A stretch of 64,000 nucleotides of DNA, taken from contig NZ_AP027081.1 in NCBI RefSeq assembly GCF_030295425.1, positions 2,172,965-2,236,964 on the forward strand. Direction: 5' to 3'. The DNA is from Mesoterricola sediminis (GTDB lineage: Bacteria; Acidobacteriota; Holophagae; Holophagales; Holophagaceae). Within the stretch, counting starts at the first letter, position 1. Each line of letters opens with the position of its first letter. The position numbers were made by a program, and so were the translations under genes. The notes beneath the pieces are model-generated. The model was not told where the DNA came from, did no database searches, and saw nothing but the letters and a program-made list of their open reading frames with translations. Shown piece after piece: positions 14,831 through 22,574 of this stretch.

Positions 14831-16405
14831 TCAGTGGTCCATCACCACCGGCTTCTGGCCCGCGTGGGTCTTGCGCATGAGCAGGAGGAGGGGCAGCAGC
14901 ACGAAGCACAGCACCCCCATGATCCAGAAGGTGTCCGAGAAGGCCATCATGTTGGCCTGCCGGAGCAGGGTCCCGTAGGCCATCCCCTGGGCCTGGTGGG
15001 CGGCGTCGGGGAGGCTGGAGCCCTTGGCCACCAGCACGTGCTGGGCGTTCTGGAGGAAGCCCTGGTACTGGAGGCTGCCCGGGTGGAGGTTGCCCACGAG
15101 GTTGGCCTGGTGGACCTGGCCCCGCCTGGACAGGATGGTGCTCACCAGGGCGATGCCGGTGCTTCCGCCGATGTTGCGCACGAGGTTCAGCATGCCGGTG
15201 GCGTAGCTGGTCTTGTCCATGGGCACGTTCTGGAAGGCCGTCACGTTCATGGGGATGAAGAGGAAGGCCAGGCCCAGGCTCTGCAGCATGCGGCTCATCA
15301 TGGCGGTCTGGAAGGGCACCTGCAGGTTGAAGGCGGACATCCAGAGGAGTCCCGCGCCGCAGGTCATGAACCCGAAGGCGATGAGCTTGCGGGTGTCCAC
15401 GAACTTCAGGAGCCGCGCCACCAGGGGCATCATGAACAGGATCACCACGCCGCCGGGGCTGAGGATCCAGCCCGAGAGGCTCGCGGTGTAGCCCAGCAGG
15501 GTCTGCAGGAAGATCGGGAGCACCGCGAGGCTGCCGTAGAGCACGAAGCCCAGGACGAACAGCATCACCGTGGAGACCGCGAAGTTCCGGTCCTTGAGCA
15601 GGCGGAGGTCCAGGATGGGATGGTCCTTCTTCAGCAGGTAGAAGACGACCCCCACGAGGCAGACCACGGCCAGCACGGCGCAGACCACGATGAGGTTCGA
15701 GGCGAACCAGTCCCTGCGCTGGCCCTCGTCGAGCACGATCTCCAGGGCGGCGAGGCCCAGGGTCAGGATGCCGATGCCGAGGTAGTCGACCTGGAACCCT
15801 TCCTTGATGGACGCGCGCTTGAGGGTCGGCGGATCGTGGACCATGCGGTAGGTAAGGAAGAGGCTGAGGGCCCCGACGGGCACGTTGATCAGGAAGATCC
15901 AGTGCCAGCTGTAGTTGTCGGTGATCCAGCCCCCCAGGACGGGGCCGACGATGGGGGCCAGGACGACGCCCATGCCGTAGAGGGCCATGGCCGCGCCCCG
16001 CTTCTCGTGGGGGAAGTTCTCCACGAGGATGGCCTGGGACGTCGGCTGGAGGGCGCCGCCCCCCAGGCCCTGCATGATCCGGAAGAAGATGAGCCACGGA
16101 AGGCTGGGCGCGAGGCCGCAGAGCAGGGAGCTCACCGTGAACAGCAGCACGCAGGTCATGTAGAAGCGCTTGCGGCCGAACAGCATGCCGAAGTAGCCGC
16201 CCAGGGGCAGGACCACGGCGTTGGCCACCAGGTACGACGTGAGCACCCAGGTGGCCTCGTCTACCGTCGACGACAGGTTGCCGGCGATGTGGGGCAAGGC
16301 CACGTTGGCCACGGAGGTGTCGAGCACCTCCATGAAGGTGGCGATCATCACCACGAGGGCGATGAGCCAGGGATTGAAGGCCTTCTGCGGCCTTTCAGGG
16401 GTCAT
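14831..16405 (-). CDS. emrB: DHA2-family MFS multidrug exporter (EmrB-type)
   Basis: A 524-residue inner-membrane drug:proton antiporter with about 14 predicted helices. Family motifs are FMEVLDTSVANVALPHIAG in helix 1 (motif D1), the loop GMLFGRKRFY (motif A), FFRIMQGLGGGALQPTSQA (motif B) and GPVLGGWITDNYSWHWIF (motif C) followed by INVPVG, all typical of EmrB/QacA-like transporters. It is the last gene of a tolC-emrA-emrB unit, 10 bases after emrA, so it should work with the periplasmic adaptor and the outer-membrane channel to expel hydrophobic compounds. The substrate cannot be read from sequence. Confidence 0.92.
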   Translation of the reverse strand: MTPERPQKAFNPWLIALVVMIATFMEVLDTSVANVALPHIAGNLSSTVDEATWVLTSYLVANAVVLPLGGYFGMLFGRKRFYMTCVLLFTVSSLLCGLAPSLPWLIFFRIMQGLGGGALQPTSQAILVENFPHEKRGAAMALYGMGVVLAPIVGPVLGGWITDNYSWHWIFLINVPVGALSLFLTYRMVHDPPTLKRASIKEGFQVDYLGIGILTLGLAALEIVLDEGQRRDWFASNLIVVCAVLAVVCLVGVVFYLLKKDHPILDLRLLKDRNFAVSTVMLFVLGFVLYGSLAVLPIFLQTLLGYTASLSGWILSPGGVVILFMMPLVARLLKFVDTRKLIAFGFMTCGAGLLWMSAFNLQVPFQTAMMSRMLQSLGLAFLFIPMNVTAFQNVPMDKTSYATGMLNLVRNIGGSTGIALVSTILSRRGQVHQANLVGNLHPGSLQYQGFLQNAQHVLVAKGSSLPDAAHQAQGMAYGTLLRQANMMAFSDTFWIMGVLCFVLLPLLLLMRKTHAGQKPVVMDH

Positions 16406-16415
16406 GGGCGGGGGC

Positions 16416-17507
16416 CTACTTGGTGAGGATGGTGGCGTCGACGTTCATGCCGGGGCGGAGGATGACCTTGTCGGCGTCCTCCTTGTCCAGCCGGATCTTC
16501 ACGGGGATGCGCTGGACGACCTTCACGAAGTTGCCCACCGCGTTCTCGGGGGGGAGGAGGCTCATCCGGCTGCCGGTGGAACCCGCCACGCTGTCGACGG
16601 TCCCGTGCAGGGTCATGCCGTTCATGTCCACCTCGACCTCGGCCTTCTGGCCGGGGCGCACGTTCTTGAGCTGGGTCTCCTTGAAGTTGGCCGTCACCCA
16701 GGTCTGGTGCAGGGGCACGAGGGTCAGGAGGCCCTGGCCGGGCTGGATGATCTGGCCGGGCTCCACGGTCTTGCGGGTCACGACCCCGTCCACGGGGGCG
16801 ACGATGCGGGTGTAGCCGATCTGGAGGAGCAGGGCGTCCAGGTTGGCCTTGGCGGCGGCGATGCCGGCGGAGGCCTGCTTGGTGCGGGCCTCGGAGGCGC
16901 TGAGGGCGGCGCGGCGGATGTCGGCCTCCTGCTTCACCCCGGCGAGGCGGCGCTGGGCGGCCTTCCATTCGTTCTCCGCGACCTCGGCGGCGTTGCGGTA
17001 GGCGTCGAACTGCTGCGCGCTGATCTCCTGGCGGTCGGCGAGGGGCCGGGTGCGGACCACGTCGGCCTTGGCCTTCTCGAAGGTGGAGCGGCGGGCCTCG
17101 AGGTTGGCCTCGGCCACCTGCAGCTCCGAGCTCCGGGCCTGCTCCAGGCTCACCCGGGAGCGGTCCACGTCGGCCGAGGCGCTGGAGGCCTGGGCCTCGG
17201 CCTGGGCGAGGGCCGCCCGGGCCTGGTCCACGCGGGCCTGGAGGTCGCGGGCGTCCAGCTCCACGAGGACGTCGCCGGCCTTCACGGGCTGGTTGTCCTC
17301 GACGGCGATCCGCTCCACGCTCCCGCCGACCTTGGCGGAGACGGGGACGAGATGGCCGTCCACCTGGGCGTCGTCGGTGCTGACCCGGTCCTTGAAGTGG
17401 TACCACCCCGCGCCCGCGGCCAGCACGGCCACGACGGCGGCGGCGGTCAGGGCCAGGCGGGTGCGGTCGCGCCGCGAATTGTCTTTCATCTCGGTGATCT
17501 CGGTCAT
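16416..17507 (-). CDS. emrA: HlyD/EmrA-family membrane fusion protein
   Basis: A 363-residue periplasmic adaptor of an EmrAB-TolC type efflux pump. It has a short cytoplasmic N-terminus, one membrane helix (about 19-38), and a lipoyl-like half-motif STDDAQVDGHLVPVSAKVGG (about 43-62). A long alanine-rich coiled-coil hairpin (about 90-200) follows, then the second lipoyl half (YTRIVAPVDGVVTRKTVEPG, about 220-240) and a beta-barrel C-terminus. DDAQVDGH is the hallmark of EmrA-like proteins. The ATG at 17507 lies 11 bases after the tolC stop, and the stop is 10 bases before emrB. Confidence 0.93.
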   Translation of the reverse strand: MTEITEMKDNSRRDRTRLALTAAAVVAVLAAGAGWYHFKDRVSTDDAQVDGHLVPVSAKVGGSVERIAVEDNQPVKAGDVLVELDARDLQARVDQARAALAQAEAQASSASADVDRSRVSLEQARSSELQVAEANLEARRSTFEKAKADVVRTRPLADRQEISAQQFDAYRNAAEVAENEWKAAQRRLAGVKQEADIRRAALSASEARTKQASAGIAAAKANLDALLLQIGYTRIVAPVDGVVTRKTVEPGQIIQPGQGLLTLVPLHQTWVTANFKETQLKNVRPGQKAEVEVDMNGMTLHGTVDSVAGSTGSRMSLLPPENAVGNFVKVVQRIPVKIRLDKEDADKVILRPGMNVDATILTK

Positions 17508-17518
17508 GGTCGGCTCCG

Positions 17519-19123
17519 TCAGTGCGCGAAGAGGGGTTCCAGCTGCCCCATGGCCTTGGCCAGGTCGGCGCGGGCCTGGTTGAGGCGGTGGAGGGCGTTG
17601 ATGCGGTTGTCGGTGGCCCGCGCCAGGTCGTCCTGGGCGGCGGTCACCTCGATGTTGTTGGAGACGCCGGCCTCGAACCGGTGGCGGGCCTGGACCATGG
17701 CCTCCTCGGCGAAGGCCACGGCGCTCGTGGTCACGGCGACCTCGTTCTTCGCCGACTCGATCTCGGCCTGGGCGACCTGGACCTCGTAGCCCACCTGGCT
17801 GCGGATCTCCTTGCGCTCCTGCTCGACCCGGGCCAGCTCGGTCTTGGCCTTGGCCACCTGGGCGGAGACGCGGCCGCCGGTGAAGAGGGGCACCTTCACG
17901 CCCACGCCCAGGGTGTAGATGGGCACCCAGGGCTGGCCGGGGTAGAGCCCGGTGGAGTTGTAGGTGCCGGTGGCCACGACGGTGGGCAGGCGCAGGCCGC
18001 GCGCGGCGTCCTGCAGGTCCTTCGCCGCCCGCTCCCGGGCGTCCAGGGCCGCCAGCTCGGGGCGCTGGGCCAGGCCCTTGCCGTAGGCCTCCTGGAAGGT
18101 GAAGGCCGGCGCCTCCGGCGCGGCGAGGGGGTCGGTGAGCTCCAGCCGGGTGTCCGGCGCGAGGTCCAGGAGCTTCACGAGCCCGTACTGGGCGGTGCGC
18201 CACTGGGTCTCGGCCTGGATGAGGCGCTGCCGTTCCGACTGCAGGGCCACCTGGGCCCGGAGGGTGTCCAGCCGGGTGCCGATGCCGTTCTTCTGCTGGT
18301 TCTCGGCCAGGGTTTCCAGCGCCTGGGCGAGCTCGACGCGGCTGGCGGCAGCCTTCATGGCCTCCGAGGCGCGCTGGCTGCGCAGGTACTGGCCCACGAT
18401 GAGCGCCGCGATCTGCTCCCGCACGGCCCGGGCCTGGGCCCGCACCGAGGCCTCGCCCTGCTGGGACGCCTTCCAGCGCTTGTAGAGGGAGAGGTCGAAG
18501 AGGGGGGCCTGGGCCTCGATGCCCACCTGGCCCGCGTTGAACGGCCCCACCACGTTGGGGCCGCCGGGGGTCGGCGTGCCCAGGAGGATGTCGAAGTTCT
18601 CCTTCATGCGGGTGATCGCGGCCTCGGCGCCCACGCTGGGGAGCAGGGCACCGGCGGCCATGCGCCGGTCCTCCTGGGCCTGGGCCACGCTCAGGAGCGA
18701 TTTCTGGACCTCCGGGTTGCGGCTCAGGCCCTGGCGGAGGGCCTCGGCCATGCTGAGGGACATGGGCGGCTCGGCGGCGGCCAGGGCGCCCGCGGCCGTC
18801 GCCGCGGCCAGGGGGAGCCAGAGGAAGCGCAGGCGGGCCGCGCCCACCTCGCCCCCGTGGAGGATGGCCTGGACGATGGGTCCCACGTAGCAGCCGGCGC
18901 CGACGAGGCCCAGACCCTCCCGGTGCAGGTCCGACAGGAGGGCGCGGCCCGCCTCGTCTACGAACCATACATTGCGAAGGTCCACCGTGGCGGCGCGGGG
19001 ATCCGTGGCGGCCCGGCGTTCGCTCCAGGCCTGGGCCAGCTCGGCCACCCAGGGACCCGACAGTTTGCCCTCCAGGACCAGGGTGAGCCGGCCGGCCTCG
19101 TCCTTGGGCGTGATTCGTAGCAT
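17519..19123 (-). CDS. TolC-family outer-membrane efflux protein with N-terminal STAS-like domain
   Basis: A 534-residue protein in one uninterrupted frame. Residues 1-91 resemble a STAS domain: TLVLEGKLSGPWVAEL, then VDLRNVWFVDEAGRALLSDL, the usual 'VDLS.V.F.D..G...L..L' pattern. Residues 97-117 are a signal-peptide-like segment (LRFLWLPLAAATAAGALAAA), and about 122-530 is a TolC/OEP domain with two copies of the helical repeat (MSLSMAEALRQGLSRNPEVQ; FTFQEAYGKGLAQRPELAAL). GGAGGTT lies before the ATG at 19123. TolC must cross the inner membrane, so the STAS part would either stay cytoplasmic on an uncleaved tether or be removed. Alternatively translation can restart at GTG 18847 (codon 93) to give a normal TolC precursor. 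Confidence 0.85.
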   Translation of the reverse strand: MLRITPKDEAGRLTLVLEGKLSGPWVAELAQAWSERRAATDPRAATVDLRNVWFVDEAGRALLSDLHREGLGLVGAGCYVGPIVQAILHGGEVGAARLRFLWLPLAAATAAGALAAAEPPMSLSMAEALRQGLSRNPEVQKSLLSVAQAQEDRRMAAGALLPSVGAEAAITRMKENFDILLGTPTPGGPNVVGPFNAGQVGIEAQAPLFDLSLYKRWKASQQGEASVRAQARAVREQIAALIVGQYLRSQRASEAMKAAASRVELAQALETLAENQQKNGIGTRLDTLRAQVALQSERQRLIQAETQWRTAQYGLVKLLDLAPDTRLELTDPLAAPEAPAFTFQEAYGKGLAQRPELAALDARERAAKDLQDAARGLRLPTVVATGTYNSTGLYPGQPWVPIYTLGVGVKVPLFTGGRVSAQVAKAKTELARVEQERKEIRSQVGYEVQVAQAEIESAKNEVAVTTSAVAFAEEAMVQARHRFEAGVSNNIEVTAAQDDLARATDNRINALHRLNQARADLAKAMGQLEPLFAH

Positions 19124-19205
19124 GGGAACCTCCGACCGGGAGACCATTGCCGGAACCGTGCCATTTGTAAAAGTGAACTAAATGCTTAAGATAACTCCGA
19201 CGAGC

Positions 19206-19270
19206 TGCCGAAGTGCCGAACCGGAATTGCCGAAAAGTCGGCAGTCTGCCGAAATGTCGGCCCGTTCGGC
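19206..19270. promoter_or_regulatory. repeated TGCCGA operator-like cluster upstream of tolC-emrAB
   Basis: TGCCGAA occurs at 19206-19212, 19214-19220, 19228-19234 and 19247-19253. The last two belong to inverted repeats: TGCCGA-AAAG-TCGGCA (19228-19243, perfect) and TGCCGA-AATG-TCGGCC (19247-19262, one mismatch), with centres 19 bases apart. A further TTCGGC is at 19265-19270. The cluster sits between the efflux operon (minus) and the Vps62-like gene (plus). A perfect -35-like TTGACA is at 19288-19293 and TATATAAT-rich sequence at 19316-19325, though their spacing is long. Confidence 0.6.
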
Positions 19271-19342
19271 GGAGTGACCCGCGTGCCTTGACAGCAGGGG
19301 CGGGGCTCCTAGGTTTATATATAATTAATAACAGGGGTGCCC

Positions 19343-20470
19343 ATGAAAGCCTTGCTCCTCCTGGCCCTTCCCGCCCTGCTGGGCGCCCAGGATCCGTCGA
19401 GCGCCGCGACCGAGAAACCCCGGCTCGCCAAGGAGGTCCTCCTGAAAGCCATCCAGGACAACGCGCCCATCCTGGTGCCCCACGGGGACGAGCTCTACCA
19501 GGTGACGAGCGTGGAGAGCTTCCTGGCTGTTTCGGAGGTCTACCCATACAACGAGGGAGGCCAGACCCATCATTTCGGGCTCCGCCTCAAGGGCGCGAAG
19601 GACACCGGCCTCAAGGGCATCTTCTCCAAGGACACCCGGGCCAAGGGCGGCGACCCCAAGAACGCCAAGGTCTACATCAATGTGAAGGTGGGGAAGGAGA
19701 CCACCGACCTCCAGTACTGGTTCCTGTACGCCTACAACGGTCCGGGGAGCGTCTATTTCGCGACCGGCAACGCCCTGCCGAAGGTGCTCCCGGCCTTCCT
19801 GACCCTCAACCAGCTCAAGAAGACCTATTCCAGTCCCAACCAGCCCATCCAGCTCCAGACGCTGGGGGCCCACGAAGGGGACTGGGAGCACCTCACGGTG
19901 CGGATCTCCAACGTCGACGGCCAGCGGATCCCGGACAAGGCGGTCTTCATGTCCGCCCACGGCGACGGGGGCTGGTACCCCGAACGCTCCGTCCTCGCGC
20001 CCGACCTGAAGGGCAAGGGGAGCCGGATCTGGGCCTTCGCCTCGAAGAACGGCCATGCCCTGTTCACGACGCCGGATGTCCACCTGTACAGCCAGTTCAA
20101 GTCGCCCATCACGGGGCTGGCGGTCTTCGCCCTCGTCAACGACACGTCCAAGCTGGGCGGCCAGGCGCTGACCGTGGACTTCGGGCTGCCCCTGCCCGGG
20201 GGCAAGGGGAGCCGCCTGGAGATCATGGGCGTCCAGGGGGATCCGGCCCTCGTCAAGGCCCTCGGCTTCACGCCGCCGGCCTGGATCGCCAAGTACCCGG
20301 ACCGGTGGGGGCGCTATGTGGAGAAACCGGTTCCCCTGGAGAATGTCCCGGGCCTGAAGACGCCGATGAAGCAGATCCTGGACAAGCTCGGGCTCCTGAC
20401 CGAGATGACCCTTGAAGCGGGCCCCCAGCCCCCCTGGAAGAAGGGCATCTGGGACAAGGAGGACGAGTAG
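19343..20470 (+). CDS. secreted Vps62-related (DUF946-like) protein
   Basis: A 375-residue exported protein with a signal peptide (about 1-16, ALLLLALPALLGAQ). The core resembles the Vps62/DUF946 family: LQYWFLYAYNGPGS (about 130-143), GAHEGDWEHLTVRISN (about 174-189) and FMSAHGDGGWYP (about 201-212), with conserved His, Glu and Asp residues clustered in HEGDWEH. The family is widespread in plants, fungi and bacteria and has no settled biochemical role. An ATG at 19343 after a GGGG stretch is preferred over a GTG two codons upstream. An AT-rich promoter region precedes it and it lies across the operator-like cluster from the efflux operon. Confidence 0.7.
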   Translation: MKALLLLALPALLGAQDPSSAATEKPRLAKEVLLKAIQDNAPILVPHGDELYQVTSVESFLAVSEVYPYNEGGQTHHFGLRLKGAKDTGLKGIFSKDTRAKGGDPKNAKVYINVKVGKETTDLQYWFLYAYNGPGSVYFATGNALPKVLPAFLTLNQLKKTYSSPNQPIQLQTLGAHEGDWEHLTVRISNVDGQRIPDKAVFMSAHGDGGWYPERSVLAPDLKGKGSRIWAFASKNGHALFTTPDVHLYSQFKSPITGLAVFALVNDTSKLGGQALTVDFGLPLPGGKGSRLEIMGVQGDPALVKALGFTPPAWIAKYPDRWGRYVEKPVPLENVPGLKTPMKQILDKLGLLTEMTLEAGPQPPWKKGIWDKEDE

Positions 20471-20489: not shown

Positions 20490-22574
20490 TCACCCCACCG
20501 GCCGAAGCGGGCCCTCGCCGATCCCGAGCTTCTTCATGCGGCTCTGGAGGGTCGTGCGCTTCATGCCCAGCCGGGCCGCGGCGCCGGCCGCGCCGCCCAC
20601 CCGGCCCCCGCTGGCCTCCAGGGCCTTGAGGATGGCGCTCCGCTCCGCGTCCCGCAGGGTCTCGCCCTCGACCTGGGCGGGGCGGGCGGGGGCCAGCTCG
20701 GCGAAGGGGATGCGCAGTTCCCGGCCCGGGCTCAGGATCACGGAGCGCTCGATGAAGTTCTCCAGCTCCCGCACGTTCCCGGGCCAGTTCCAGGCCGCCA
20801 GCGCCTCCATGGCGCGGGCGGGGATGGCGTCGATGGGCTTGTGCATGCGCTGGGCGAACTTCTGGGTGAAGTAGCGGACCAGATCGGGGATGTCCTCCCG
20901 GCGCTCCCGGAGGGGCGGGATGCGGATGGGGAACACGTTGAGGCGGTAGAAGAGGTCGGCCCGGAAGGTCTTCGCCTCCACCATGGCCGCGAGGTCCTGG
21001 TTGGTGGCGGCGATGAGGCGCAGGTCCACCTTGCGGGGCTTCACGCCGCCGAGACGCTCGAACTCCCGTTCCTGGAGGGCCCGCAGGAGCTTGGGCTGGA
21101 GCTCCAGGGGCAGGTCGCCCACCTCGTCGAGGAAGAGGGTGCCCTCGTGGGCCAGCTCCAGGCGCCCGGCCTTGGCCGAGATGGCGCCGGTGAAGGCCCC
21201 CTTCTCGTGGCCGAAGAGCTCGCTCTCCATGAGCCCGGCGGGGATGGCGGCGCAGTTGATCTGGACGAAGCTCTTCTCGGCCCGGGGGCTGAGGCCGTGG
21301 ATGGCCCGGGCCATGAGTTCCTTGCCCGTGCCGGTCTCCCCCAGGAGCAGCACCGTTGCGCCGCTGGGGGCGACGGTCTCCACCTGCCGCAGGACCTTCA
21401 TCAGGCTGGCGCTGTTGCCGATGATCTCCAGGCCGTAGTCCCGGTCCATCTCCTCCTGCAGGTAGAGGTTCTCCTGGGCCAGCTTGTCGCGGAGGGCCTG
21501 GATCTCCTCGTAGGCGAAGGCGTTGTCCAGGGCGATGGCCACCTGGGCCCCGGCCCGGCCCAGGAGGTCGGCCACCGCGGGCGGGAAGGCCCCTTCCCGG
21601 CGCGACGCGAAGCTCAGCACCCCCATGACCCGGTTGCGGCTGATGAGGGGCACGCTGCACATGGAACGCAGGCCTTCGCCCTCGACCATGACCTGGGGCA
21701 CCGGCGGCGGGAAGGCCAGGAGGTCCTCCCGGGTGAAGACGCAGGGCTGGCGGAGCTCCATGGCCCGCCCCGTGGGGCCCAGGCCCGGGGCGAAGCCCCG
21801 GTTCTCCTGGATGTGGCCCCGGCTGCCGGGGAAGTCGATGAACCGCACCTCCACTTCCCGCCCGTCGTTCTGGGCGACCACGAGCACGAGGCCGTCGTAG
21901 GCGATGTGGCGGCGGAGGTTCGCGGAGATGGCCTCGAAGAGGTCCCGGGGCTCCCGGTGCGCCATGAGCTCGTTGGTGATCTCCAGCAGGACCCGCTGCT
22001 GGTCCCGCTCCCGGGTCAGGCTGGCGTTGAGTTCGTCCAGCTGGCGGAGGCGGAGGATGCGCAGGGCGTAGCTGGAGAGGAACCGGGCGAGGAAGATCAG
22101 GTAATCGTGGCCGACGGCCTGGAAGGCGCCGGGCTCCCGGCTCGCCAAGGCGAGGCCCCCCACGAGGCGCTCCGGTGTCCGCAGGGGCAGGAGAACGGCT
22201 GAACGGAAGCCCATGTCCTTCAGCACCCGGCCCATGCCGCCCGAACCGCAGGCTTCGGCCTGTTCCAGGCAATAGAAGTCCTTGGCCAGGTTCCGGGTGG
22301 CCTCGACCCAGGCGGGCAGGGGGCTCACCGGGTCCAGGAGGCCGTCCGGTCCCGATTGGGCGGCCCACTGGGAGAGGGGCAGGCCCTCGTCGGGGGCGCC
22401 CAGCCAGAGAGCCAGCCGATGGAGGGGCAGGTCCTCCTGCAGCACCCGGTACAGGGCCGGGCCCAGGGTCTCCAGGTCCCGGCAGGGGCCCAGGGCCGCG
22501 GCCGCGTCCAGCAGGTGGGCGAGGCGGGCGGGATCCAGGTCCCGGAAGGCCGGGGTACGGGGCTCAGGCGTCAT
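20490..22574 (-). CDS. sigma-54-dependent regulator with two GAF-like domains
   Basis: A 694-residue enhancer-binding protein. Two GAF-like sensory domains occupy about 15-190 and 205-350; the second contains QPCVFTREDLLAFP and SMCSVPLISRNRVMGVLSFA. The AAA+ domain (about 375-610) has Walker A GETGTGKE (about 411), the sigma-54-contacting GAFTGA loop (about 460), Walker [13 protein letters not shown], and RADLFYRLNVFPI and WPGNVRELEN. The C-terminus is a Fis-type helix-turn-helix (AAARLGMKRTTLQSRMKKLG). This is the NorR/FhlA-like layout without a receiver, so a ligand or redox signal acting on GAF is likely. It is convergent with the Vps62-like gene and targets are unknown. Confidence 0.93.
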   Translation of the reverse strand: MTPEPRTPAFRDLDPARLAHLLDAAAALGPCRDLETLGPALYRVLQEDLPLHRLALWLGAPDEGLPLSQWAAQSGPDGLLDPVSPLPAWVEATRNLAKDFYCLEQAEACGSGGMGRVLKDMGFRSAVLLPLRTPERLVGGLALASREPGAFQAVGHDYLIFLARFLSSYALRILRLRQLDELNASLTRERDQQRVLLEITNELMAHREPRDLFEAISANLRRHIAYDGLVLVVAQNDGREVEVRFIDFPGSRGHIQENRGFAPGLGPTGRAMELRQPCVFTREDLLAFPPPVPQVMVEGEGLRSMCSVPLISRNRVMGVLSFASRREGAFPPAVADLLGRAGAQVAIALDNAFAYEEIQALRDKLAQENLYLQEEMDRDYGLEIIGNSASLMKVLRQVETVAPSGATVLLLGETGTGKELMARAIHGLSPRAEKSFVQINCAAIPAGLMESELFGHEKGAFTGAISAKAGRLELAHEGTLFLDEVGDLPLELQPKLLRALQEREFERLGGVKPRKVDLRLIAATNQDLAAMVEAKTFRADLFYRLNVFPIRIPPLRERREDIPDLVRYFTQKFAQRMHKPIDAIPARAMEALAAWNWPGNVRELENFIERSVILSPGRELRIPFAELAPARPAQVEGETLRDAERSAILKALEASGGRVGGAAGAAARLGMKRTTLQSRMKKLGIGEGPLRPVG

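Follow-up and report, generated by a model that had tools for sequence, protein, structure and literature searches.

One gene of Mesoterricola sediminis fuses a small cytoplasmic signalling domain of the STAS superfamily to an outer-membrane channel of the TolC type, with the signalling domain placed ahead of the channel's export signal. In the genome sets searched, 24 genomes showed the same in-frame order, so that at least 24 bacterial genomes carry it. The fusion is conserved and probably old, and in it a cytoplasmic regulatory domain precedes the signal sequence of a protein bound for the outer membrane. In the stretch of DNA analysed here (64,000 nucleotides, hereafter the window), the fusion gene belongs to what reads as a sigma-54-controlled efflux operon, and its STAS domain to a wider subfamily that travels with sigma-54 enhancer-binding proteins (EBPs). 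The joint gene comes first in the operon, which suggests a switch-controlled pump that carries part of its own control device. We found no prior account of a STAS domain with TolC or with EBPs in the open-access literature searched.

The STAS-TolC gene and its two domains

A preliminary description of the locus had proposed a STAS part fused to TolC without an intervening stop, a GTG at 18847 (codon 93) and a signal-like segment between the two parts. All of this, the coordinates included, was correct: an open frame of 534 amino acids starts at the ATG at 19123 and runs on the minus strand to 17519 with no internal stop. Its parts are listed below in window positions.

17519-17521, minus strand: stop codon of the STAS-TolC gene
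17522..18772, minus strand: TolC-type outer membrane channel, residues 118-534 (PF02321 and Foldseek)
18773..18859, minus strand: linker and putative internal Sec-type signal sequence, residues 89-117 (hydrophobic core, charge, cleavage site, low pLDDT, substitution pattern)
18845..18847, minus strand: GTG codon 93, proposed internal restart (a Leu codon in sister genomes; judged not to be a conserved start)
18860..19123, minus strand: STAS domain, residues 1-88 (AlphaFold2, Foldseek, TM1442 profile match, sub-threshold STAS_2)
19129..19133, minus strand: GGAGG Shine-Dalgarno sequence of the STAS start (from sequence; kept in genus relatives)

The C-terminal part, of 417 residues, matches PF02321 (OEP) in two stretches (Pfam, E 1.3e-58), corresponding to two OEP repeats, and its TolC fold is borne out by Foldseek, which returned TolC (E 6e-19), OprN and OprM. 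The N-terminal part carries the motifs LEGKLSGPW and VDLRNVWFVDEAG. Its own match to STAS_2 (PF13466) is sub-threshold (E 0.0033, 18 bits against a cut-off of 29.2), as is that to mlaB_1 (E 7e-4), and with 20 bits against a cut-off of 90 bits for NF033618 (MlaB, NCBIfam) it falls outside the MlaB family. Membership of the STAS superfamily can nevertheless be considered secure, since the relatives L110 and L119 pass PF01740. Furthermore, a profile built from 49 relatives matches TM1442 (PDB) and SpoIIAA, the AlphaFold2 model has a mean pLDDT of about 96-97 over residues 1-90, and Foldseek places that model in the STAS fold, a beta sheet with alternating helices, with RsbV, SpoIIAA and MlaB as matches (E 2e-5 to 1e-3). 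A mismatch to STAS, which would have spoken against the initial assignment, was thus found only at the level of the domain's own Pfam score; by fold and by relatives the domain is STAS.

Classical anti-sigma antagonists have a conserved phospho-Ser/Thr (PMC7367683). The window protein has D56-E57-A58-G59 where TM1442 and SpoIIAA have D-S-[SA]-G, and so offers no phosphorylatable Ser or Thr at this site; in the family, the position after the conserved Asp is mostly Ala or Glu. Given the Glu in the window and a Ser in just 9 of 88 members, the domain is not a standard phospho-switched antagonist. The host genome is complete (4.52 Mb) and holds no other strong member of this STAS subfamily.

The efflux operon, its promoter and the recurring activator

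What the STAS part may do is indicated by features absent from the preliminary description: a sigma-54 promoter, two operators and an EBP. They are listed here with the remaining pump genes.

14831..16405, minus strand: MFS multidrug exporter, EmrB-like (PF07690 6.5e-64)
16416..17507, minus strand: HlyD/EmrA-type membrane fusion protein (PF16576 3.4e-22, PF13437 6e-20)
19148..19163, minus strand: sigma-54 promoter (-24/-12) TGGCACGGTTCCGGCA, 40 nt before the start codon, score 20/22
19228..19243, no strand assigned: palindromic operator TGCCGACTTTTCGGCA, probable upstream activating site of the EBP
19247..19262, no strand assigned: second palindromic operator GGCCGACATTTCGGCA, 19 nt from the first
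20490..22574, minus strand: sigma-54 enhancer-binding protein (EBP), GAF - AAA+ - Fis HTH (PF00158 2.4e-71, GAF, HTH_8)

The promoter score of 20/22, reached with p 0.005 in shuffled sequence, is that of a -24/-12 element, and no sigma-70 promoter was found in a scan of 19100-19400. Scores of at least 19/22 occurred in 39% of 82 homologous upstream regions, compared with 2.6% of control stretches, and the strong matches lay mostly 38-75 nt before the start. Both palindromes follow TGCCGA-N4-TCGGCA at a spacing of 19 nt, a core pattern that occurs in the 4.5 Mb host genome in this intergenic region only. Palindromes of the same type also precede STAS genes in other Acidobacteriota and in Nitrospirota (L049, L061). 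The neighbouring EBP, one of only 14 encoded in the host genome, shares 72% identity with the EBP that L046 encodes directly 5' of its fusion. The locus thus has both the tandem operators and the nearby EBP gene expected of sigma-54/EBP-controlled operons.

Two side observations concern this region. A single-copy gene for a Vps62-like secreted protein (19343-20470, plus strand; PF06101, E 1.3e-18) lies divergently between the EBP gene and the STAS-TolC operon, with which it has the operator region in common; L046 has no such gene between EBP and fusion. At L103, a palindrome of like geometry with other half-sites (TGTCCATATGTGGACA) lies about 150 nt 5' of the STAS gene in a same-family operon that pairs STAS with an RND adaptor, which would fit a separate operator for each EBP.

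Searching 84,980 genomes with a STAS profile made from ten sequences gave 80 loci; the conservation of the LEGKL/FID motifs among them stems in part from the patterns used to search, a bias from which the HMM survey is free. The subfamily was found beside GAF-type sigma-54 activators in Acidobacteriota, Nitrospirota, Planctomycetota and Proteobacteria. Of the 71 loci whose upstream sequence extended to 1 kb or more, 31 have an EBP gene on the same strand whose end lies no further than 900 bp from the STAS start; no EBP was detected within that distance in the other 40, some of which have one further off. A GAF domain was recognised in each of the ten EBPs scanned, in some of them only by a weak or partial match, and several contain PAS domains. 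The complete order EBP, STAS-TolC, HlyD, MFS is present in G001 and G302. Across the loci, the genes 3' of STAS vary between HlyD plus MFS, an RND adaptor, an ECF sigma factor and Crp. By its gene neighbourhoods, the recurring partner of the subfamily is thus the EBP and not the pump.

Several loci show further arrangements. Stand-alone STAS genes are followed by an ECF sigma gene at L119, L117, L078 and L121 and by a Crp/FNR-type regulator at L113 and L083; most of these loci sit behind an EBP gene, and STAS-headed cascades from sigma-54 to ECF or Crp are possible. At L108 (2068-2898), a STAS domain of the same subfamily is apparently in frame with sigma-70 region 2 (ECF-type; PF04542, E 1.5e-13) downstream of an EBP gene, giving this domain a second type of fusion. 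G302 holds, besides its STAS-TolC fusion, a separate STAS gene between HlyD and MFS in the same operon (L185:2258-2620, L185:3890-5620). At L055 and L058 the order is reversed: the EBP gene comes directly after STAS and overlaps it, and TolC and MFS lie further 3'.

The explanation that best accounts for these data, to which as a whole we give about an even chance, is an EBP-driven efflux operon whose first product is cut after synthesis. The STAS-TolC gene would be the first cistron of a sigma-54-dependent operon of the EmrAB-TolC type, and we infer that the GAF-domain EBP (20490-22574) binds the tandem palindromes and drives the -24/-12 promoter before the STAS start. A single polypeptide would be made, in which STAS folds in the cytoplasm and the internal hydrophobic segment directs the remainder to Sec. 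Cleavage by signal peptidase I at ALAAA|E would then release TolC to the outer membrane and leave behind one STAS domain per channel subunit, anchored in the inner membrane through the signal segment. This tethered domain would act on its EBP, as feedback or as a signal relay. Since the EBP gene recurs as a neighbour while the downstream genes vary, gene order makes the EBP the most likely target.

A less probable target, which we consider unlikely though worth retaining, is the pump or the way it is assembled. There is precedent in STAS domains that regulate transporters, as MlaB does by acting on the ABC subunit MlaF (PMC7367683), and one sub-threshold match of the window domain is to mlaB. 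However, the operons that this subfamily heads contain MFS, RND, ECF-sigma or Crp genes and share no transporter on which it could act, and it is the EBP that recurs across loci. Conceivably, the domain affects export instead.

If STAS does act on the EBP, these activators, a large class of regulators, would gain a partner of a new kind, and through the fusion the control of the efflux genes would be coupled to the channel's own export. A bolder version, which we put forward as speculation, is an export-coupled feedback switch, in which each exported and cut TolC leaves one tethered STAS that reports channel number to the EBP, the wider subfamily being a general and so far undescribed partner of GAF-type EBPs. 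In that event, the cell would count its finished outer-membrane channels by a fragment of their own precursor.

The predicted internal export signal and the number of products

Two explanations had been offered for a signal-like segment (residues 97-117) behind a cytoplasmic-type domain: cleavage with STAS kept in the cytoplasm, or a translational restart at GTG 18847. The first is favoured by the features of the segment. In all 24 fusions, a stretch of non-negative charge, a hydrophobic core and a signal-peptidase-like site follow one another in that order, the site being mostly A/G-Q, the most frequent form, or A-E. In the window, the predicted signal peptidase I cut falls after residue 117 (ALAAA|E) and the core is weak, with a 12-residue mean of 1.74, a value that does not exceed those found elsewhere in the protein. 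In related genera, the unfused orthologues start with an ordinary signal peptide at the corresponding position, and the AlphaFold2 model has low pLDDT at residues 91-116, between two well-folded parts. Within the genus, substitutions per site in the linker and signal region amount to 0.17, 0.075 and 0.375 at the first, second and third codon positions, a pattern resembling that of the STAS and TolC parts, and by this measure the region evolves as translated, selected coding sequence. The simplest reading is one polypeptide with a predicted cut at an internal signal sequence.

A restart would instead give two products from one cistron, with STAS made by low-level read-through and TolC mostly by re-initiation, for example at GTG 18847. 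This codon does have a G-rich stretch just 5' of it, and some in-frame start codons lie near the segment in L080, L091 and others. The GTG is, however, replaced by a Leu codon in four sister genomes (L045, L046, L007, L008), and four fusions (L050, L065, L072, L138) have no ATG, GTG or TTG at all from residue 71 to the hydrophobic core. Moreover, separate translation would not need the open frame that all 24 fusions keep, nor does it fit the coding-type evolution of the linker. We therefore regard re-initiation as improbable.

Equally improbable, in our estimation, is an uncleaved fusion, in which the hydrophobic segment would be a permanent anchor holding the channel at the inner membrane while STAS stays cytoplasmic. 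The large cytoplasmic domain before the segment recalls a signal anchor, and the charge would give an N-in/C-out topology. Against this, every fusion keeps the signal-peptidase-like site, the segment aligns with the ordinary signal peptides of the unfused orthologues, and the TolC barrel has to reach the outer membrane. Cleavage of a single precursor hence stays the preferred reading.

Distribution, origin and comparison with known systems

The fusion is in frame in all six genus genomes examined, at 62-74% identity, and in another genome of the Holophagaceae (G022); the other 17 of the 24 are nearly all acidobacterial. Two of the metagenome-assembled genomes are labelled Pseudomonadota and may be misbinned. 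The total is made up of the scan, in which about 20 of the 80 loci carry an in-frame fusion (roughly 530-560 residues long when complete), G302 (L138) and the genus members. The frame is broken at L099 and ends early at L072 (445 aa), both of which we read as local error or decay; L052 is truncated by the end of its contig. Long frames in G279 and G091 were rejected as additional fusions, being ordinary STAS proteins of another type. A stop or frameshift between the parts in homologues, which would have pointed to a sequencing error, was thus not what the 24 in-frame homologues showed. That two genes were joined by sequencing error or misassembly, an idea with nothing in its favour except the odd topology, can be set aside as having a negligible chance, the junction being the same in 24 independent genomes, complete ones included.

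A tree of the TolC parts, a quick one with long branches, contains two fused groups and implies at least 2-3 changes: one group comprises the 17 sequences from outside the Holophagaceae, and in the other the seven Holophagaceae sequences are intermixed with 14 unfused ones. A tree of the STAS domain, intended to date the fusion, gave no resolution over its 90 columns. These sequences are compatible both with one ancient origin followed by losses and with more than one gain of the fusion.

Among known systems, the EmrA-EmrB-TolC tripartite pumps of the MFS type likewise combine an HlyD adaptor, an MFS exporter and an OEP channel in one operon, whereas the window's channel gene has an N-terminal STAS domain and its operon a sigma-54 promoter and an EBP. 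The GAF-type EBPs (NorR/FhlA-like) and their targets share the GAF - AAA+ - Fis HTH architecture, the tandem palindromes and the -24/-12 promoter; here, in contrast, the operon makes a STAS domain as its first product, a combination that we did not find described in the literature searched. The anti-sigma factor antagonists SpoIIAA and RsbV (PF01740) are alike in fold and length, and a role in transcriptional regulation would be expected by analogy. Unlike them, the window domain lacks the phospho-Ser/Thr and has its own motif, LEGKLxGPW, and no anti-sigma kinase gene was noticed adjoining it. MlaB (STAS_2, NF033618) is likewise a minimal STAS protein of about 90 aa, with a weak sequence match and a Foldseek match to MlaFEB, whereas the window domain scores far under the family cut-off and no MlaF-type ABC ATPase was seen in the operon. 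A parallel for the proposed processing is Bradyrhizobium fbcH (cytochrome b/c1), a bacterial polyprotein cut at an internal signal sequence. It too yields a cytoplasmic or membrane N-terminal part and an exported C-terminal part from one frame, separated by signal peptidase. However, fbcH joins two enzyme subunits, whereas the fusion gene of the window places a regulatory domain before an outer-membrane channel.
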